Assembly: GCA_012270585.1 (NCBI GenBank)
Contig: JAAXIB010000064.1
Location: 1 to 42,049, forward strand
Length of the DNA: 42,049 bases
Source of the DNA: Nitrospirales bacterium
GTDB taxonomy: Bacteria; Nitrospirota; Nitrospiria; Nitrospirales; UBA8639
Direction of reading: 5' to 3'
Numbering within the stretch: position 1 is the stretch's first letter; each line of letters opens with the position of its first letter. This document shows positions 2,568-42,049 of the stretch, piece by piece. The notes under the pieces are model-generated. The model saw only the letters and a list, made by a program, of their open reading frames with translations. It did not search any database and was not told the DNA's origin. The translations under genes were made by a program, and so were the position numbers.

Positions 2568-3338
2568 TCATCCGACCGGCGCGATCAGCACCACGGTCGT
2601 ATTGTCCCGGCCTCCCCGAACATTGGCCTGATCAATGAGCGCCTGACACTTTTGTTCCGGTGGGTGCGACCGCACCGTCATCAGGACGCCCAGGATGTCT
2701 TCATCATTCAGCATTTTATTCAGGCCGTCGCTGCACAGGAGAACCTCATCCGTTTGTTGAAGTTCGACCGTCGAGACGTCGACCTCGACCGCAGGGCTGA
2801 CGCCGATGCCTCGGGTGAGTACGTGCCCGTATGGGTGAGTGGTCGGTGTTGATTTGGGCAACAATCCTTGTTGGATGCGTTCTTCGAGCACGGTGTGATC
2901 CCTGGTCAATGCGGAAATCCGTCGATTCCGAATGAGATAGGCCCGGCTGTCACCTGCATGGGCAATCCAGGCGAGAGGGGAGGAAGGTACCGGCAGAAAG
3001 AACAGTACCACGGTCGTTCCCATACCGGTAAATTCGGGGTTGGCTCGGGCATAGGCCCGAACGGTTTCATTGGCATGTCCGATCGCCGACCGTAAAAACG
3101 TGGGAATCTCATGCGTGGCCGGCAGCCCTTGTGTCACACGTTCCGTCACGAAGCCGCGAATCGCGTCGACTGTTGTTTGACTGGCTACGTCTCCGCCTGC
3201 GTGTCCGCCCATGCCGTCGGCAACAACCCACAGTCCCAGTTCATTCGAGGCCAGAAAGGCGTCCTGATTCGCGGGACGTACACGGCCGACGTGCGTCATG
3301 CCGGCTCCCTGCCATCGTACCGTGTGGTCCATAATCAA
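2568..3338 (-). CDS. PP2C-family serine/threonine protein phosphatase
   Basis: A 256-residue metal-dependent phosphatase of the PrpC/Stp type that removes phosphate from Ser/Thr residues. The metal-binding motifs appear in order: VGRVRPANQDAF near the N-terminus, VVADGMGGHAGGDVAS, WIAHAGDSRAYL, LLCSDGLNKML and GGRDNTTVVL at the C-terminus. No membrane segment or extra domain is present. Its ATG overlaps the stop of the upstream exonuclease gene by four bases (ATGA), so translation of the two is coupled. No Ser/Thr kinase lies in the window, so the substrate is unknown. Confidence 0.93.
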   Translation of the reverse strand: MIMDHTVRWQGAGMTHVGRVRPANQDAFLASNELGLWVVADGMGGHAGGDVASQTTVDAIRGFVTERVTQGLPATHEIPTFLRSAIGHANETVRAYARANPEFTGMGTTVVLFFLPVPSSPLAWIAHAGDSRAYLIRNRRISALTRDHTVLEERIQQGLLPKSTPTTHPYGHVLTRGIGVSPAVEVDVSTVELQQTDEVLLCSDGLNKMLNDEDILGVLMTVRSHPPEQKCQALIDQANVRGGRDNTTVVLIAPVG

Positions 3339-4096
3339 TCGCGTCTGGGGCCCTGCCGCGCCCGAAGGGCCTGATACAGATATTCGGCAAGCGGATCGAG
3401 ATTGCGGACGTCCGCCTCATTGTACGCACGCAGCGTGTCGCCGGCCTGCTCGTCTCCGGCTTGCCATGCGTGCCATAAATTGACGGCGTCCCAGCCATCC
3501 AGGCCTTGCAGGTCGTCGGAGCGAGCCAGCCCGAGTTCGGCTTCGATGCGTTTTAACCCGCCCCGCAAGCCTAATCGTCTGGCGGCGAAACACAGGTCGA
3601 AATGGGCGTGGGAGAGATCCAGTCTGGGATAGCTCATCCGCAAATAGGGCAGGTCGAACCCCGATCCGAAAAACGTCACGATCAGATCGTACTTGGACAG
3701 TTCTTCCTGCAAGCGATCCTGCGTCAGGTTTTGGTGACGAACCAGCGTGGTCATCGAGTGGTTGCCGTACAAGCCGACCATGGTGATCTCGCCTTCTCCG
3801 GCCGGGTACCCGTTGGTTTCGATGTCCAAAAACACCGTCCGCGCGCGAAAGGCTTCGAACAGTCGCCACTGATGCGTTGCCTTGAACCGCTTGGCGACCG
3901 TGCGCCATTGCGCACTTTGGAAATCTTCCCACACTTCTGCAACTTCACGATCATAGAGAGCCTTTCGTGCGGAACCGATGCCCAAGGCGGTGGAAGTCTC
4001 AAGAAATTGCCGCCAGTGGGCCATGCCGTCGGCCCACAGACGCCGTTCCGTGGTCTCTCCGATACCCTTCAGAAAAATGAACGAACATTCAAGCAT
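3335..4096 (-). CDS. RNase H-fold DEDDy exonuclease (YprB/ribonuclease H-like family)
   Basis: A 253-residue protein whose second two-thirds form a DnaQ-like 3'-5' exonuclease domain. Exo I is FLDIETNG (D91, E93), Exo II is FGSGFDLPYL (D148), and Exo III is YNEADV (Y225, D229), giving the DEDDy set. The arrangement and the AARRLGLRGGLKRIE segment match the YprB-like ribonuclease H-like family, usually annotated as predicted exonucleases. The first 80 residues are a helical N-terminal extension. It is the first gene of a two-gene operon with the PP2C phosphatase (4-base overlap). An AGGAGG lies 14 bases before the ATG, longer than usual. Confidence 0.85.
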   Translation of the reverse strand: MLECSFIFLKGIGETTERRLWADGMAHWRQFLETSTALGIGSARKALYDREVAEVWEDFQSAQWRTVAKRFKATHQWRLFEAFRARTVFLDIETNGYPAGEGEITMVGLYGNHSMTTLVRHQNLTQDRLQEELSKYDLIVTFFGSGFDLPYLRMSYPRLDLSHAHFDLCFAARRLGLRGGLKRIEAELGLARSDDLQGLDGWDAVNLWHAWQAGDEQAGDTLRAYNEADVRNLDPLAEYLYQALRARQGPRRD

Positions 4097-4190
4097 GACT
4101 GAGTCGTACGCCTCCTGTTTCTTGCGCTCGCATTCGGCAACACGCTACAGTCGGTCACCGGGAAATTCAAGGAGATGAACAAATGAGTGA

Positions 4191-4291
4191 TGTAGGTCGG
4201 GTTAGCAAAGCGTAACCCGACATCTTGCTTCGCTCAGGACAACCGCTAGTCATAGAATTGTTGGATTACGCTACGCTAATTCAACCTACAA
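4191..4291. repeat. REP-like inverted pair (BIME-like element)
   Basis: Two related palindromic units lie head to head. The first reads TGTAGGTCGGGTTAGCAAAG and continues to a matching arm (stem GTCGGGTT/AACCCGAC). The second, near 4260-4290, is the same type on the other strand (stem GTTGGATT/AATTCAAC, one G-T pair), with AGC/GCT-rich loops in both. Such pairs are characteristic of REP/BIME elements moved by TnpA-REP enzymes. No such transposase is in the window. The element marks the left border of the accessory region. Confidence 0.65.
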
Positions 4292-4362
4292 CTGACCTTG
4301 ATCCTGAGTTTGTTTACGAAAAGTGCCGCATCGTACAACAAAGCACTTCAGCGGACGGGTAA
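4292..4362 (+). pseudogene. Truncated 3' end of a DUF2442 gene
   Basis: These 71 bases match 6737-6807, the end of the intact DUF2442 gene, with six differences (about 92% identity), including the LDPEFVYEKCR coding stretch and the stop codon. Nothing upstream belongs to the gene: the REP-like element directly abuts it. This is therefore a decapitated copy that kept the 3' end and the adjoining attC-like site. Confidence 0.75.
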
Positions 4363-4389
4363 CGCCGCCGCTGATGCCGAGCGTTAAGC
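4333..4389. other. attC-like recombination site 1 (candidate)
   Basis: The 57-base segment starts GTACAAC (consensus RYYYAAC, one mismatch) and ends GTTAAGC (fits GTTRRRY). Inside are the inverted arms TCAGCGG and CCGCTGA around a short loop. Size, end boxes and internal hairpin are those of short integron attC sites. The site overlaps the 3' end of the truncated DUF2442 gene, and the next gene starts 15 bases later, as in gene cassettes. No integrase is visible, so the assignment is tentative. Confidence 0.45.
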
Positions 4390-4404
4390 GTGAGGGTTAA
4401 ACAT

Positions 4405-5064
4405 ATGGCTCTCGAAGAAAAAATTCGGAATAAATTTGATAAACTCATTAGTTCATCTGCAACTTTGAAACTTGGTAATAGACACGGTCAGATTCTGAAC
4501 GACCAACATAGTCAAGCTTGTAAGGCATGGCTTGCCTCAGCTCACAATTTAGCCCATTGGGTTTTAGCGTCATCGTCAAATCCCTACAAAACTGCCATCG
4601 ACAAAATCTGTTCTACTGATCGTGGCTTGCGAATTCCTGACTCTGTTGGTGCAGTCGCTGCAATGCTTGAATCACTATTGAGTGATATTGATAACGGCTT
4701 AATTTCATCAATTGAAAATCAGACAAGAGCTGTAGTTTTTGATGATTTTCTTGATCACGCCAAAGAATATGCAGAGCAAAACTTATCAAAAGAATCAGGT
4801 GTCATATCCGGTGTCGTGTTCGAAGATGCCTTGCGTACAATTTGCCGGAATCATGACATCGAAGAAAAAGGGCACAAATTGGACGAACTCATATCGGTAT
4901 TATCAAAGCAAGGGATTTTTAATGAGACCAAAGCAAAAAGGGCACGAGTCGCCGCACATGTGAGAACTAAAGCAACACATGCTCAGTGGGATGAATTTGA
5001 TATATCTGACGTAAAGACAACGATAGAATTTACCGAAGAACTCATTACTAGTAATCTTTGCTAA
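4405..5064 (+). CDS. Hypothetical protein, HEPN/DUF4145-like C-terminal region
   Basis: A soluble, largely helical 219-residue protein. The ATG at 4405 is chosen over the GTG at 4390 because GAGGG lies eight to nine bases ahead of it. The second half (KLDELISVLSKQG, then ARVAAHVRTKATHAQWDEF) resembles C-terminal regions of HEPN/DUF4145-type proteins common in defence and abortive-infection genes. That likeness is by eye only and no catalytic motif is certain. Codon use is clearly A/T-richer than in the flanking housekeeping genes, a sign of transfer. It directly precedes the secreted-protein gene and sits between two attC-like sites. Confidence 0.7.
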   Translation: MALEEKIRNKFDKLISSSATLKLGNRHGQILNDQHSQACKAWLASAHNLAHWVLASSSNPYKTAIDKICSTDRGLRIPDSVGAVAAMLESLLSDIDNGLISSIENQTRAVVFDDFLDHAKEYAEQNLSKESGVISGVVFEDALRTICRNHDIEEKGHKLDELISVLSKQGIFNETKAKRARVAAHVRTKATHAQWDEFDISDVKTTIEFTEELITSNLC

Positions 5065-5076
5065 TTGGAGATAGTT

Positions 5077-5634
5077 GTGAGATCGCGAATCATATTGTTG
5101 CTTGTTCTGATGCTGCCAGTAGTTGCATCGGGAGAGCCGACGGAAACGCCAGAATATCTAATGTCTGAACCTATGTCCCTAATGGACTGGGGTATATATC
5201 AGGCGGGTAAGAAAATGGAATCCTTCAAGAATCTCAATAACGTCCAGCCCCCACTTTTCTCAACATATTACACGGGTGGTTGGGCGCGATACGATTGGGA
5301 CGAAAACAGGATTGTTCTTTTAGGGATGTTTTATGGCAACGGCATACAAGACGAATGCACAGAAAACTTGAAGAAGCTAAAAGGTGCATTCGTGGACTTT
5401 ACTTGGGATGAAAAAGAACAAAGGGAAGCCGCAGAAAGGGTGCTAAATGGGCTTTTTAGTCACGAGGCAGACTATCAAACAAAAGGCAGACCTAGTGATG
5501 TTGGAAAACAGTTGGTCCACATCACAATAGTGGAAGCGCATATCATAACAAGCCAGAGCGAGGGCTTGCCTAAGACTACTGTCAAATGCAAGAGCACTTT
5601 CAAATCGTCAGAGTTATCGATAATAGCAAAATAG
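5077..5634 (+). CDS. Secreted hypothetical protein (signal peptide)
   Basis: A 185-residue protein with a clear signal peptide: basic start, hydrophobic core ILLLVLMLPVVA, likely cleavage after VASG or nearby. The GTG at 5077 is preferred over TTG 5065 because TTGGAGA lies six to seven bases upstream. The mature part is polar with two spaced cysteines and no recognised family. The gene starts 12 bases after its neighbour and ends one base before a GCCCAAC box, so both genes fit one cassette. Composition is A/T-rich like its partner. Confidence 0.65.
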   Translation: MRSRIILLLVLMLPVVASGEPTETPEYLMSEPMSLMDWGIYQAGKKMESFKNLNNVQPPLFSTYYTGGWARYDWDENRIVLLGMFYGNGIQDECTENLKKLKGAFVDFTWDEKEQREAAERVLNGLFSHEADYQTKGRPSDVGKQLVHITIVEAHIITSQSEGLPKTTVKCKSTFKSSELSIIAK

Positions 5635-5635
5635 A

Positions 5636-5712
5636 GCCCAACAATTACATGTGCTCGGGTAGGAAAAACTGCCGTATCGTTTTGTTTTTCCCTGCCGGTG
5701 GTGATATTAGGC
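5636..5712. other. attC-like recombination site 2 (degenerate candidate)
   Basis: GCCCAAC (5636-5642, perfect RYYYAAC) follows the stop codon of the secreted protein, and ATTAGGC (5706-5712) closes the element 77 bases later. That box departs from GTTRRRY at the otherwise invariant G. Between them GGTAGGAAAAAC pairs with GTTTTTCCCTGCC with one bulged C and one G-T pair, like the extrahelical bases of attC hairpins. A factor-independent terminator is a competing reading, although no T-tract follows the stem. Confidence 0.35.
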
Positions 5713-5738
5713 GATGATGGTCGTGTGTAGAAAACAAC

Positions 5739-5997
5739 ATGCCGGTTATCAGTAGATTTCTCGGAATTGTCATCGCCATGTTTTGGGATGATCATGTTCC
5801 CGCGCATTTTCACGCGAAGTATGGCGAGTATGAGATAATCGTTCACATCCACACGGGTGTTTGTGGAGGGACAATTTCCAAAACGGGCACTTCGACATGT
5901 GATAGAGTGGTACGAGCTACATAAGGATGAACTTTTGGACAGCTGGGAAAGGTGTCGTAGAAAAGAGGCTCCGAATCCCATCGAACCTTTGGAATAA
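5739..5997 (+). pseudogene. DUF4160 gene with a +1 frameshift
   Basis: The first 39 or so codons encode the DUF4160 N-terminus (MPVISRFLGI, then HVPAHFHAKYGEYE). The rest of the domain (VEGQFPKRALRHVIEWYELH) continues in the next frame to a stop at 5997. Removing one T near 5860 in GGGTGTTTGTGG restores an 85-residue protein of normal length. The frame break is either a real mutation, a sequencing error at a short T run, or a shift site. DUF4160 proteins are small, of unknown function, and usually precede a DUF2442 gene, as here. Confidence 0.75.
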
Positions 5998-6289
5998 TTC
6001 GATCTTTCTCCATGTGACTCATGCAAAACCTCTCGACGGCTACCGGGTAGAAGTAGGTTTCGACGACGGACGCGAAGGTATCGCGGACCTCACGGAAGCC
6101 CTCGAAGGACCGGCGTTCGAGTCATTGAAGGATCCAGATGTGTTCAGGAAGTTTCGGGTTGACGAAGAACTTCAGACTATCGTGTGGTCCAACGGAACGG
6201 ATCTGGCACCGGAATATATCTATTATCAGGCATTTCGAGACGATCCGGAACTTCAAGCTACCTTTCGCAAGTGGGGCTATGTCGTCTGA
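5927..6289 (+). CDS. DUF2442 domain protein (pair 1)
   Basis: The recognisable DUF2442 domain runs from LHVTHAKPLDGYRVEVGF to the C-terminus, with GREGIADL, FRKFRVDEELQTIVW and NGTDLAPEYIY, the usual landmarks. The ATG at 5927 lies within the 3' end of the DUF4160 gene in another frame and adds about 26 residues foreign to the family. A GTG at 6014 would start inside the domain, so the true start is uncertain. DUF2442 proteins are small, of unknown function, and are partners of DUF4160. The coupled arrangement resembles toxin-antitoxin pairs, which is inference. Its stop overlaps the start of a second DUF4160 gene. Confidence 0.75.
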   Translation: MNFWTAGKGVVEKRLRIPSNLWNNSIFLHVTHAKPLDGYRVEVGFDDGREGIADLTEALEGPAFESLKDPDVFRKFRVDEELQTIVWSNGTDLAPEYIYYQAFRDDPELQATFRKWGYVV

Positions 6290-6536
6290 CCCGGTGCTTC
6301 ACACGGACCGGCTATGCGGGGCTGGCGAGCACCCTCCGCCTCACTTTCATGTTTATTACGCTGAACATAAAGCAAAGGTTGATATTCGCACTTGTGAGAT
6401 TATTGACGGCACGTTGCCAAAAAAGCAGACGAAATTAGTTTTGGCTTGGGCAGAGCTGCACCATGAAGATCTTGTGGCAAATTGGGAACTCGTCATGAAT
6501 GACGAAGAACCATTTAAGATTCAACCATTACAATGA
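6279..6536 (+). CDS. DUF4160 domain protein (pair 2)
   Basis: An 85-residue product with the family core PPPHFHVYYAEHKAKVDI, the LPKKQTKLVLAWAELHHEDL helix and a C-terminal EPFKIQPLQ. The ATG at 6279 overlaps the end of the preceding DUF2442 gene by 11 bases, indicating translational coupling. The first 17 residues (DPVLHTDRLCGAGE) differ from the usual family start (P-I-S-x-F-x-G-I), suggesting divergence or N-terminal decay. It is followed by a second DUF2442 gene 10 bases downstream. Confidence 0.75.
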   Translation: MSSDPVLHTDRLCGAGEHPPPHFHVYYAEHKAKVDIRTCEIIDGTLPKKQTKLVLAWAELHHEDLVANWELVMNDEEPFKIQPLQ

Positions 6537-6546
6537 GGACAATCTG

Positions 6547-6807
6547 ATGCACCGTGCTGTGGTATCTGTTGAGTGTCGAGAAGATTACATCTTGTCAATA
6601 GTTTTTGATAATGGAGAGGGCGGATTACTGGATATGAAGCCTTACTTAAATCTTGGGGTTTTTAAAAAAATACAAAATCCAAGCGTCTTCGAGACAGTTC
6701 ATGTCTCGTTTGACACAATTGCATGGGAATCTGGCGCTGATCTTGATCCTGAGTTTGTTTACGAGAAGTGCCGTATTGTACAACAAAGCGCTTCAGCGGA
6801 CGAGTAA
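6547..6807 (+). CDS. DUF2442 domain protein (pair 2)
   Basis: An 86-residue protein with the domain landmarks VSVECREDYILSIVFDNGEG, FKKIQNPSVF and SGADLDPEFVY. The ATG at 6547 follows GAGGACAATCTG. The last nine residues (QQSASADE and stop) are encoded by an attC-like site, as often seen in integron cassettes. Its terminal 71 bases are duplicated at 4292-4362. Function unknown. The DUF4160-DUF2442-DUF4160-DUF2442 order is a tandem duplication of a two-gene unit, although the two pairs have diverged strongly from one another. Confidence 0.8.
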   Translation: MHRAVVSVECREDYILSIVFDNGEGGLLDMKPYLNLGVFKKIQNPSVFETVHVSFDTIAWESGADLDPEFVYEKCRIVQQSASADE

Positions 6808-6832
6808 GCCGCCGCTACGTTTAGCGTTACCC
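6778..6832. other. attC-like recombination site 3 (candidate)
   Basis: This is a near copy of site 1: GTACAAC at the left, the arms TCAGCGG and CCGCT, and GCGTTACCC at the right (GTT conserved, then ACC instead of RRR). Total 55 bases. It overlaps the end of the DUF2442 gene, and the next start codon lies nine bases downstream. The same hairpin core in sites 1 and 3 shows a shared origin. No integrase is seen. Confidence 0.45.
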
Positions 6833-6840
6833 GAAAAGCA

Positions 6841-7296
6841 ATGTCACACTGGAATTACAGAGTCATCAGGGAGCATCATCCCGAACCAGACTCGGTGGCG
6901 TATCAAGTCCACGAGGTGTATTACCGGGAGGACGGCGGCATAGAAGGTTGGACACAAGCACCAGTTGCGCCTATGGGTGAAACGGCTGAGGAACTCAGAG
7001 AAGACATCAGGTATTTTCTCCATGCGTTCCGTCGTCCTATACTTGAAGTAAAAGAAACAGACGAAGGGGCAACCCTCGTTTCTGACGATACGGGCGATGC
7101 CATCAATGATGGCCACTATTTCGAACTCATGGATCGGGCGTCGGTCGCATTAGATTACATGTATCAATTTCTTGGCAGCCACCCGCTTATCAGGAAAGAC
7201 AAAACACTGCAAGGCATGTATGAAAAAGCGGAGGAGGCTTTAGCTGAACTCTATCAACGAGCCGGCCTGTTGGAGTTTGATAGAAGCAGCAGCTAA
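6841..7296 (+). CDS. Conserved hypothetical protein (151 aa)
   Basis: A soluble, acidic 151-residue protein beginning SHWNYRVIREHHPEPDSV, with ETAEELREDIRYFLHAF in the middle and a helical C-terminus. I know similar-looking short proteins as uncharacterised ORFs scattered among bacteria, but can name no domain. It begins directly after attC-like site 3, so it would be the first gene of the next cassette. No strong ribosome binding site is seen, which is also common for cassette genes. Confidence 0.7.
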   Translation: MSHWNYRVIREHHPEPDSVAYQVHEVYYREDGGIEGWTQAPVAPMGETAEELREDIRYFLHAFRRPILEVKETDEGATLVSDDTGDAINDGHYFELMDRASVALDYMYQFLGSHPLIRKDKTLQGMYEKAEEALAELYQRAGLLEFDRSSS

Positions 7297-7370
7297 CAGG
7301 GCAAGCCCAGTTCACTTCACTTTTCGGCGTCTGATTTGCAACATGATGTCTTACGTAGAGGAGAGATCTT

Positions 7371-7556
7371 ATGGCAATAGCGAAAGAGAAGATGAAGGAA
7401 GTAATCGAGTCGCAGCCGGATGACGCAACTTATGAGGAAATCCTGCGCGAACTTACGTTCGAACGCATGATCGAGCGTGGTCTTACGGATTCCCGAGAGG
7501 GCCATGTGATATCAAATGAGAAGATGGAGCACCGTATTCGCTCGTGGCAGAGATAA
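7371..7556 (+). CDS. Orphan antitoxin of a RelE/ParE-type module
   Basis: A 61-residue, highly charged protein (KEKMKEVIESQPDDATYEEI then ELTFERMIERGL) of the small antitoxin type that precedes RelE/ParE toxins. A good ribosome binding site (GAGGAGAG) lies upstream. At its 3' end the first codons of a toxin overlap its stop (GTG at 7544, VAEIRWT, the typical ParE start), but that reading frame runs into unrelated sequence after about eight codons. The toxin has therefore been deleted and the antitoxin stands alone. Confidence 0.75.
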   Translation: MAIAKEKMKEVIESQPDDATYEEILRELTFERMIERGLTDSREGHVISNEKMEHRIRSWQR

Positions 7557-7570
7557 GGTGGACAAATTTC
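7544..7570 (+). pseudogene. 5' stub of a ParE/RelE toxin gene
   Basis: GTG at 7544 opens a frame coding VAEIRWTN, the usual first residues of ParE-type toxins, overlapping the end of the antitoxin gene by 13 bases as in intact modules. After about eight codons the similarity stops and the sequence continues into the leader of the cyclophilin-like gene. The junction marks a deletion boundary between accessory and core DNA. Confidence 0.55.
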
Positions 7571-7621
7571 TTTCTACCTGCGTTCCGGGGCTTGCGATCG
7601 AAATATGGGGAGAACTTGCTG

Positions 7622-8011
7622 ATGGACGACAAACCAAAGCGGATTAAAATGACGGTTGGCGGCGTTGCCGTGGAAGTGGAGTTGAAACCGACGCGCACGG
7701 CGCAGGCCATCTACGACGCCTTGCCGGTTGAAGCCAAGGTGAACCAATGGGGAGAGGAATTTTATTGCCGGCTTCCCGGAGTCAAGGACTACCGTGAAAC
7801 CGCGACGACGAATGTGAAAGTGGGAGACGTCGCGTATTGGGGGCTTGGGGGCATGTTGGCTGTTTTTTTTGGACGAACCCCCATGAGTATTGGGGAAGAC
7901 CCGGTCCCGGCGGATCGGGTCAACGTCGTCGGACGGTTGATCGGAGATCCAACGGTGCTTCATGGAGCCGTCGGCGCCACGATGATGAAAGTCGAAAAGG
8001 TTGCTTCATAA
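7622..8011 (+). CDS. Cyclophilin-like fold protein (TM1367/DUF3830-type)
   Basis: A 129-residue protein with the small beta-barrel pattern of the cyclophilin-like family: an early strand (KMTVGGVAVEVELKPTRTAQ), a central EEFYCRLPG, then GDVAYWGLGGMLAVFFGRTP, PADRVNVVGRL and VEKV. Proteins of this fold have no proven isomerase activity. The ATG at 7622 has GGGGAGA eight bases upstream; the in-frame GTG at 7544 belongs to the toxin stub. It is followed four bases later by the first DUF507 gene, so the two form an operon. Confidence 0.8.
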   Translation: MDDKPKRIKMTVGGVAVEVELKPTRTAQAIYDALPVEAKVNQWGEEFYCRLPGVKDYRETATTNVKVGDVAYWGLGGMLAVFFGRTPMSIGEDPVPADRVNVVGRLIGDPTVLHGAVGATMMKVEKVAS

Positions 8012-8015
8012 CGGG

Positions 8016-8297
8016 ATGCGAGTGACCGAGGAGCGCATTCGATTGCTGGCAACGGCTGTCGTCGAGCGCTTGCAGGAACAAGGGCTTTTGGAGATTGCCG
8101 GGTCGAAAGAACGTTTGATCCATGACGTCCGGAAAGCCGTCACCGACGAGCTTTCCGTGGAAGACCGGCTTCATGCGGAAATTCGGGCCCTGTTGAAACA
8201 TTATGACGCGGAGTTTCAAAGCGGTCGATCGGATTATCAGAAGATGTTCATCATGGTGAAAAACAAGTTGGTCAAAGAGCGCGGGTTGATCCTGTAG
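8016..8297 (+). CDS. DUF507 family protein (copy 1)
   Basis: A 93-residue helical protein beginning MRVTEERIRLLATAVVERL, the typical DUF507 opening, followed by VEDRLHAEIRALLKHY and a C-terminal MFIMVKNKLVKERG. ATG 8016 is chosen over TTG 8001 because it gives the family N-terminus. DUF507 proteins occur mainly in Nitrospirota, deltaproteobacteria and Aquificae and have no assigned function. A second diverged copy follows about 100 bases downstream. Confidence 0.85.
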   Translation: MRVTEERIRLLATAVVERLQEQGLLEIAGSKERLIHDVRKAVTDELSVEDRLHAEIRALLKHYDAEFQSGRSDYQKMFIMVKNKLVKERGLIL

Positions 8298-15883: not shown

Positions 15884-15886
15884 CCA

Positions 15887-16120
15887 CTCCCTCTCCCCAA
15901 AGGTGGGAGAGGGCTGGGGTGAGGGGGCCTTCGCCTTTCCGTCATCCCCGACGTTCTTAATCGGGGCTCCAGCGTCTTTCCGTTTCCTGTCATCCTCGAC
16001 ATTTGTAATCGAGGATCCAGTGTCTTTACTTTTGTTTCTGGGTTTCGTTGTCGCCGCGCGATCTTATGGCACTAATTTCACCCTCTCCCCAAGGTGGGAG
16101 AGGGCTGGGGTGAGAGGGCA
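15887..16120. repeat. Cluster of dispersed repeats ahead of tRNA-Thr
   Basis: The roughly 300-base gap between the cyclophilin gene and tRNA-Thr holds two copies of the CCCTCTCCCC...GGGAGAGGGCTGGGG hairpin element (15887-15929 and 16080-16119) bracketing two GTCATC...GATCCAG palindromes (about 15941-15976 and 15987-16022). The first hairpin copy follows the cyclophilin stop by a few bases. No gene is seen. Confidence 0.75.
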
Positions 16121-16183
16121 TGAAAAACGTGGAATAAAAGATTGATGAACTAAGGAAATCTCGAAAAGCAAAGGAAGAAGAAA

Positions 16184-27976: not shown

Positions 27977-28278
27977 CTGTCATCCCCGACTCGATCGGGG
28001 ATCTGGTGTCTTTTGCTTTCTTCTGCTTTCTTCTGCTTTTGTTCCTTTCTGTCATCCTCGACGCCTGTCCTCGACATTTGTAATCGAGGATCCAAATCGA
28101 GGATCTAAATCGAGGATCCAGGAGTTTTTGTTCCAGGCGGGTTCGCATGAATGGAGGGCCAGAAGAGTAAGACCCTGGATTCCTGCTTTCGCAGGAATGA
28201 CAGCAAAGAAAATCGAGGATCCAGGGTCTTTGTTTTTCCCCCTCACCCCAGCCCTCTCCCACGATGGGGAGAGGGGGA
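27977..28278. repeat. Cluster of dispersed palindromic repeats
   Basis: The 410-base gap between the permease and nitroreductase genes is made mostly of repeats. These are GTCATCCCCGAC...GGGGATCTGG (27977-28010), a multiple GTCATCCTCGAC...GAGGATCC array (28049-28122, with three partial GAGGATC units), a CCTGGATTCCTGCTTTCGCAGGAATGACAG unit (28171-28203) and a CCTCACCCCAGCCCTCTCCC hairpin (28238-28277). The 18 bases at 28297-28314 match 4-21 at the window start. It lies between convergent genes and no gene is visible. Confidence 0.8.
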
Positions 28279-28347
28279 ATCGGGAATGACAAAAGCAGGT
28301 TATTTTCATACCAAAGGTGCGGGAAGATCACGCGGCTACGAATCCCC

Positions 28348-36142: not shown

Positions 36143-36184
36143 ACGATTACCACCCGTAGAGGCAACACCTTCACCTTTCCTTCC

Positions 36185-36487
36185 TTCTGTCATCCCCGAC
36201 GCCTGTCCTCGACGCTTGTCCTCGACATTTGTAATCGAGGATCCAAATCGAGGATCTTAATCGAGAATCCAGCGTCTTTCTTTTCCTTCCGTCCGCAAAG
36301 GCAACAACCCTGGATTCCTGCTTTCGCAGGAATGACAGAAAAGGAAATCGAGGATCCAGTGCCTTTGCTTTTGCCTTCGTCCCTTTCTGTCATTCTCGAC
36401 ATTAGTAATCGAGAATCCAGTGTCTTTTCTTTTCCTCCGCTTTGCGAAGAGACAGCCCCTGAATTCCTGCTTCTGCAGGAACGACGG
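36185..36487. repeat. Long array of dispersed palindromes between trpE and trpG
   Basis: Inside the trp operon lie at least four to five palindromic units. A compound GTCATCCCCGAC...TCCTCGAC...GAGGATCC stretch spans about 36185-36272. A CCTGGATTCCTGCTTTCGCAGGAATGACAG unit is near 36310-36340. GTCATTCTCGAC...GAGAATCCAG is near 36388-36420, and a degraded relative ends near 36487. The remaining gap to trpE (36488-36609) shows nothing else. The array separates trpE from trpG, which usually adjoin. Confidence 0.82.
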
Positions 36488-36609
36488 ATTCGGGCTGTTT
36501 TCGTTTCGATGACAGATTGAAAATGTTGTTTGCATTCTTGTGTTCATTGTCGGCAAATGAGTCAACATTTTCTCTTTGTTGTCCGTCGCTTGTTGTCTGT
36601 TTCCAAGTA

Positions 36610-41951: not shown

Positions 41952-42036
41952 CACCCCCCTCTCCCCATCGTGGGAGAGGGCTGGGGTGAGGGGGAAAAAG
42001 CAAAGACCCTGGAACCTCACTTGCCTTGTCTGTCAT
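41952..42036. repeat. Dispersed repeats at the window's end
   Basis: After the methyltransferase stop a CCCCTCTCCCC...GGGAGAGGGCTGGGG hairpin element occurs at 41952-41996, followed by GACCCTGGAACCTC...TGTCATTGGTATG, a decayed member of the GGATCCAG/GTCAT family. No gene is present in the remaining bases. Confidence 0.7.
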
Positions 42037-42049
42037 TGGTATGTTGCTT

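Follow-up and report, generated by a model that had tools for sequence, protein, structure and literature searches.

The DNA window analysed here, which is the whole 42,049-base contig C59 of genome G000 (2.5 Mb, 89 contigs), very probably carries two type II toxin-antitoxin modules of the DhiT/DhiA type (DUF4160/DUF2442) whose decay took place within an insertion hot spot of the genome. The locus represents a known system that has worn out, and not a new system. Both toxin genes in the window are broken, a point missed in the preliminary description of this DNA; hence, the pairs in the window are not working two-gene units. The array consists of the following four genes.

5739..5997, forward strand: DhiT-like toxin 1 (DUF4160), with a frameshift near 5856-5865 (Pfam; orthologue alignment)
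6014..6289, forward strand: DhiA-like antitoxin 1 (DUF2442), open frame (reading frames; Pfam)
6279..6536, forward strand: DhiT-like toxin 2 (DUF4160), with the N-terminal ~17 residues replaced at the junction with the end of pair 1 (Pfam; comparison with G004)
6547..6807, forward strand: DhiA-like antitoxin 2 (DUF2442), open frame (reading frames; Pfam)

The order DUF4160-DUF2442-DUF4160-DUF2442 at 5739-6807, as given in the preliminary description, was confirmed by four Pfam matches far above chance. The first DUF4160 domain scores 35.8 and 32.5 bits in two frames, and the second scores 73.9 bits; the first and second DUF2442 domains score 52 and 51 bits, respectively. The Pfam cut-offs for DUF4160 and DUF2442 are 23 and 23.9 bits. 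The strong divergence described between the pairs was also found: the toxins are 42% identical, a value calculated for the intact orthologues from G001 and G004 and not for the broken window copies, and the window antitoxins are 27% identical. The genes had further been described as overlapping or abutting. Their tight order stands, but the overlap of the second DUF4160 gene with the first DUF2442 gene is a junction artefact, since the intact copy of toxin 2 in G004 has its own start and N-terminus. Genome G000 contains a third DUF4160/DUF2442 pair, open and unbroken, at C72:131825-132254, and a DUF2442 3' fragment on contig C71.

The DUF4160 domain of toxin 1 is split, the frame of 5739 encoding Pfam positions 1-41 and that of 5857 positions 37-65. 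In the alignment, the toxin 1 orthologues of G001, G011, G012 and G009 are intact, and a one-base frameshift sets the window apart from them. Outside the lesion, the dN/dS of the window toxin 1 is 0.02-0.04 versus four relatives. The gene is thus otherwise strongly conserved, and the frameshift either arose very recently or may be a fault of the assembly. If the frameshift were a sequencing or assembly error, toxin 1 would be intact in the organism and a working pair 1 would stand beside a truncated pair 2. Both the low dN/dS and the absence of the lesion from the intact orthologues favour this possibility; nevertheless, we consider it rather unlikely. The toxin 1 orthologue of G008 is broken independently of the window lesion, and the 41 related genomes studied contain 5 split toxin loci versus one internal stop among the paired antitoxins. 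In addition, the usual start codon of antitoxin 1 is also lost: the codon used by six relatives (at 6002) is changed in the window, where the possible starts are GTG 6014 or the in-frame ATG 5927. Due to this loss, an intact antitoxin 1 means here an open frame only.

Decay of pair 2 is seen at its junction with pair 1. The second DUF4160 domain lacks Pfam positions 1-10, and the first ~17 residues of the window toxin 2 are substituted by run-on sequence from the end of pair 1. The junction removes the conserved residues M1, P2, F7, G9 and I10 (numbering of A2). With toxin 1 frameshifted and toxin 2 deprived of its N-terminus, neither protein should be toxic. The open antitoxin frames, if they act at all, may be anti-addiction leftovers. 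The retention of an antitoxin after the loss of its toxin is a pattern described in the literature, and anti-addiction is one of the roles proposed for it (PMC7192599, PMC8198452). In this respect, the window resembles the orphan antitoxins of degraded type II toxin-antitoxin loci reported in a survey of Klebsiella (PMC7192599), with the antitoxin kept and the toxin lost. The groups reported in that survey are other antitoxins from another genus, whereas the DhiTA family is concerned here.

The array is located in a variable region between two conserved genes. The features of this region and its flanks, besides the array itself, are listed below.

3335..4096, reverse strand: gene of the left flank, conserved among relatives, for an RNase_H_2-type exonuclease-like protein (Pfam RNase_H_2, 109.9 bits)
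4173..7621, no strand: variable region in which the array lies, an insertion hot spot between the two conserved genes (flank comparison)
4187..4291, no strand: ~100-bp MITE/REP-like element with similar inverted ends (sequence; blastn of 4171-4292)
4292..4362, forward strand: remnant, the 3' end of an antitoxin gene like the second DUF2442 gene, 92% identical to 6737-6807
4405..5064, forward strand: HEPN-domain protein, weak match, with an R-x4-H motif (Pfam HEPN, 23.0 bits versus a cut-off of 22)
5065..5634, forward strand: uncharacterised protein with a signal-peptide-like N-terminus (by eye), no family match
6841..7296, forward strand: uncharacterised 151-aa protein, no family match; present at the same locus in G004, G013 and G008
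7371..7556, forward strand: 61-aa antitoxin-like protein that precedes a ParE toxin in G005, without significant family match
7544..7567, forward strand: remnant, the first 8 codons of a ParE toxin gene whose frame is open in G005
7579..7647, forward strand: remnant of a vapC (PIN) toxin gene, comprising its stop and the 22 codons before it
7622..8011, forward strand: gene of the right flank, conserved among relatives, for a cyclophilin-like protein (Pfam Cyclophil_like, 109.6 bits)

The left flank DNA (3335-4180) is present in 10 of the 14 congeneric genomes and the right flank DNA (7567-8297) in all 14, the genome of the window being counted in both cases. Two relatives have an empty site, with a gap between the flanks of 37 bp in G010 and 54 bp in G003. 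The gap amounts to 1.1-5.3 kb in G001, G004, G005, G011, G012 and G013, and the locus of G008 is divided between two contigs. According to the segment maps, the hot spots of G001, G011 and G012 retain pair 1, and that of G004 retains pair 2. Antitoxins persist at the locus with the toxin broken or gone in the window, G008, G012 and G013. Toxin 2 is missing from both G012 and G013, where hardly any sequence separates the left flank from antitoxin 2; G013 has also kept antitoxin 1 and lost most of toxin 1, and in G008 the broken toxin 1 lies beside an open antitoxin 1. Contrary to this pattern, G005 retains only a short piece across the boundary of toxin 1 and antitoxin 1, and all that G008 has of antitoxin 2 is its tail, which shows that antitoxins, too, are lost. 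Across the relatives, one genomic site is found intact, half-broken or empty, a natural series useful for understanding how toxin-antitoxin modules die.

The hot spot contains the remnants of four toxin genes, none of them at full length. The ParE toxin of G005 is open (Pfam ParE, 48.4 bits), and a longer form of the vapC gene in G008 matches PIN with 57.4 bits. More copies of the element at 4187-4291, which we take to be a MITE, were found with blastn in the hot spots of several relatives, and the junction at 4292 is common to the window and G008. G012 also encodes the HEPN protein of 4405-5064 at this locus. Next to it in the window, no antitoxin partner was recognised.

The cassette setting mentioned in the preliminary description is valid if it denotes a hot spot of insertion whose content changes, but the searches for an integrase and attC sites did not bear it out in the sense of an integron. 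That these genes form an integrase-less array of integron cassettes appears improbable. One attC-like stem is found at 4333-4389 and also at the antitoxin 2 end in G012 and G013, and a GTTRRRY-like stretch lies directly ahead of pair 1 in G001 and G009. However, the loose attC rule yields 0-3 matches per 42 kb of shuffled DNA, and the stem at 4333-4389 is near that rate. The 20-base attC-like site occurs only at the antitoxin 2 end, apart from one match with two mismatches in G000:C34. No TIGR02249 integron integrase above the cut-off was found in G000 and 13 congeneric genomes, where the assembly could be incomplete. Integron cassettes were rejected as an explanation on the basis of these three unsupportive searches. 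Two separate observations concern the same subject: G013 has matching changes on both sides of the attC-like stem, and a genome of the same order encodes a full integron integrase (TIGR02249, 460 bits) at G032:C25:739-1683.

The assignment of the decayed modules to the DhiT/DhiA type is based on a family already known from experiments. The preliminary description considered the pair a candidate undescribed system with no established function, and both statements were wrong: Dickeya dhiTA was shown experimentally in 2021 (PMC8198452), an independent Thermus module was reported in 2025 (PMC12724237), and NCBIfam carries DhiT and DhiA models. This closes a would-be discovery, as the pair is DhiTA, an already demonstrated toxin-antitoxin module. 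The guess of a toxin-antitoxin system was right in kind, with DUF4160 being the toxin and DUF2442 the antitoxin.

For dhiTA of Dickeya dadantii 3937, the overexpression of the toxin is reported to inhibit growth in Dickeya and E. coli, and the co-expression of the antitoxin to abolish this effect (PMC8198452). According to the same report, the two genes share a transcript, and promoter activity falls in the presence of the complex, i.e., the module is autoregulated; in the E. coli experiment described there, plasmid maintenance was not raised. The Thermus plasmid module is reported to increase plasmid persistence (PMC12724237). In the experiments described in that paper, no Thermus transformants were obtained with a construct devoid of the second ORF, and neither of the deletion constructs disturbed E. 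coli; a heterodimer was predicted by AlphaFold 3. DUF4160/DUF2442 is also entered in a table of toxin-antitoxin systems (PMC12654330). When the module is intact, the small protein DUF4160 would inhibit growth of the cell that makes it, and would be bound and neutralised by DUF2442, which is co-translated with it, as others have shown in Dickeya and partly in Thermus. The pair would also repress its own promoter, as shown in Dickeya.

The window has the layout of this family, namely DUF4160 beside DUF2442, the toxin gene first and short spacing. A full-length open toxin gene is absent from the window, toxin 1 being frameshifted and toxin 2 N-terminally replaced. The domain pair, the toxin-first order and the overlapping or abutting genes are shared with Dickeya dadantii 3937 DhiTA, as presented in Table 1 of PMC8198452. 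Unlike Dickeya DhiTA, the window has two tandem modules with both toxins broken and scores below the equivalog cut-offs. The NCBIfam DhiT model gave 61.2 bits for the window toxin 2 and 73.0 bits for the intact toxin 1 orthologue (equivalog cut-off 100), and the DhiA model gave 23.8 and 15.5 bits (equivalog cut-off 200); these values point to the same superfamily and stop short of strict equivalence to the Dickeya equivalog. The domain pair, its order and similar protein sizes (87 and 92 aa in Thermus) are also features of the Persistence-Enhancing Module of Thermus thermophilus, as described in PMC12724237. Thermus plasmid homologues are 54.7% identical to the intact toxin 1 orthologue. In contrast to the working, plasmid-borne Thermus module, the window copy is broken and resides in a contig of a 2.5-Mb assembly. 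Relatives of DUF4160 were found in 5 GenBank phage records and 28 PLSDB plasmids, which indicates that the family travels on mobile DNA. A search of the viral contig set with antitoxin 1 found zero relatives.

The obligate pairing of DUF4160 and DUF2442, proposed as a check in the preliminary description, was supported, in a near-obligate form, by two sets of loci. For the first set, genome contigs were scanned with a DUF4160 alignment, and the best 80 of at least 555 confirmed loci were kept, so this set leans to closer relatives; the scan used the N-terminal motif, and N-truncated toxins were therefore missed. A DUF2442 match begins no more than 47 bases downstream of DUF4160 in 77 of these best 80 loci. 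In two of the three exceptions, L151 and L176, the contigs end 21 and 148 bases past the toxin, respectively, and in L174 the DUF2442 gene lies upstream. A stop, frameshift or insert was found in 5 of the 80 toxins of this best-scoring set, and all 77 of its antitoxins are open. At locus L044 (G040:C8), DUF4160 and DUF2442 form one open frame, perhaps a natural fusion via an indel.

In the 41 related genomes, 56 DUF4160 matches were merged into 51 loci. An adjacent DUF2442 gene is present at 49 of them (47 downstream and 2 upstream), both remaining toxins are themselves damaged, and DUF2442 adjoins each of the 38 undamaged toxins. The damaged toxin loci number 13 (5 split, 5 N-truncated as judged by profile coverage and 3 with an internal stop), and 11 of these adjoin DUF2442. 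Among the paired antitoxins, one has an internal stop (G005:C22, where the toxin is also split) and one is short at the N-side (G024). Damage to the toxin only was found in 10 of the 49 pairs versus 1 with damage to the antitoxin only (two-sided sign test, 0.012; the events are not independent). DUF2442 occurs without a toxin in 32 of 81 matches, 3 of which are fragments; some of these unpaired genes may have other roles or belong to toxins too divergent to detect. Since damage falls mostly on the toxin and the unpaired copies are mostly antitoxins, the data support DUF4160 as the toxin. The window locus, where the DUF4160 genes break and the DUF2442 genes persist, adds evolutionary evidence on which partner is the toxic one.

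An AlphaFold2 model of the toxin homologue from locus L144 (mean pLDDT 94.3) features five strands followed by one long helix. A Foldseek comparison of this model with the PDB gave no match under E 0.001, and the best VIA-align hits, polo-box chains with Z 4.9, were not reliable. No sequence relative with a solved structure was found for the DUF4160 toxin (best E 0.058). Reading a toxin mechanism or a new fold from the L144 model was rejected, as an absent PDB match is evidence for neither. Among the toxin residues that vary little or not at all are H19, H23, H25, W57, H61 and W69, and this conservation in the alignment suggests an active or metal site. It is conceivable, and we propose it tentatively, that DUF4160 attacks RNA or a nucleotide in an enzyme-like manner through the conserved H19, H23, H25 and H61. 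With no sequence-related solved structure found for its toxin, the family is still worth biochemical study.

The predicted fold of the antitoxin-1 homologue from L144 (pLDDT 95.2) is similar to that of the DUF2442 protein NE0471 (PDB 2auw, E 3.4e-05, TM 0.76 by query length), the 2auw chain being longer (151-170 residues versus 95). NE0471 presumably has a C-terminal DNA-binding domain. The resemblance of the DUF2442 fold to this putative DNA-binding protein, together with the high conservation of both genes, would be compatible with DUF4160/DUF2442 being a paired regulator or enzyme rather than a toxin-antitoxin module. That seems very unlikely in view of the growth inhibition and rescue reported in Dickeya and E. 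coli (PMC8198452), the zero transformants reported for the Thermus plasmid without the second ORF (PMC12724237), and the asymmetric decay and orphan antitoxins in the 41 related genomes.

A defence role had also been suggested for the array and was unsupported. The location in a hot spot whose contents change between relatives and the HEPN-domain neighbour would suit a working anti-phage defence island, but the search of 7 region proteins against PADLOC-DB gave 0 matches at E <= 0.05 and the toxins of the array are broken, and such an island is highly improbable.

All six single frameshifts examined in DUF4160 genes (G001:C1, G002:C14, G005:C22, G019:C72, G015:C122 and 5739-5997 of the window) have a net +1 offset at differing sites; the 5 split toxin loci of the 41 genomes and the G015 locus share this offset, which is probably due to chance or insertion bias. 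The idea that frameshifted DhiT genes are not all dead, with ribosomal +1 frameshifting yielding low toxin in several genomes and gating toxicity at translation, is extremely unlikely, and programmed frameshifting was rejected as the main reading because the window lesion is absent from the orthologues and the lesion sites differ between genes. Besides the decayed DhiT/DhiA modules, the contig contains dispersed repeat families at 2291-2480, 15885-16127, 28038-28279, 36176-36488 and 41952-42037.
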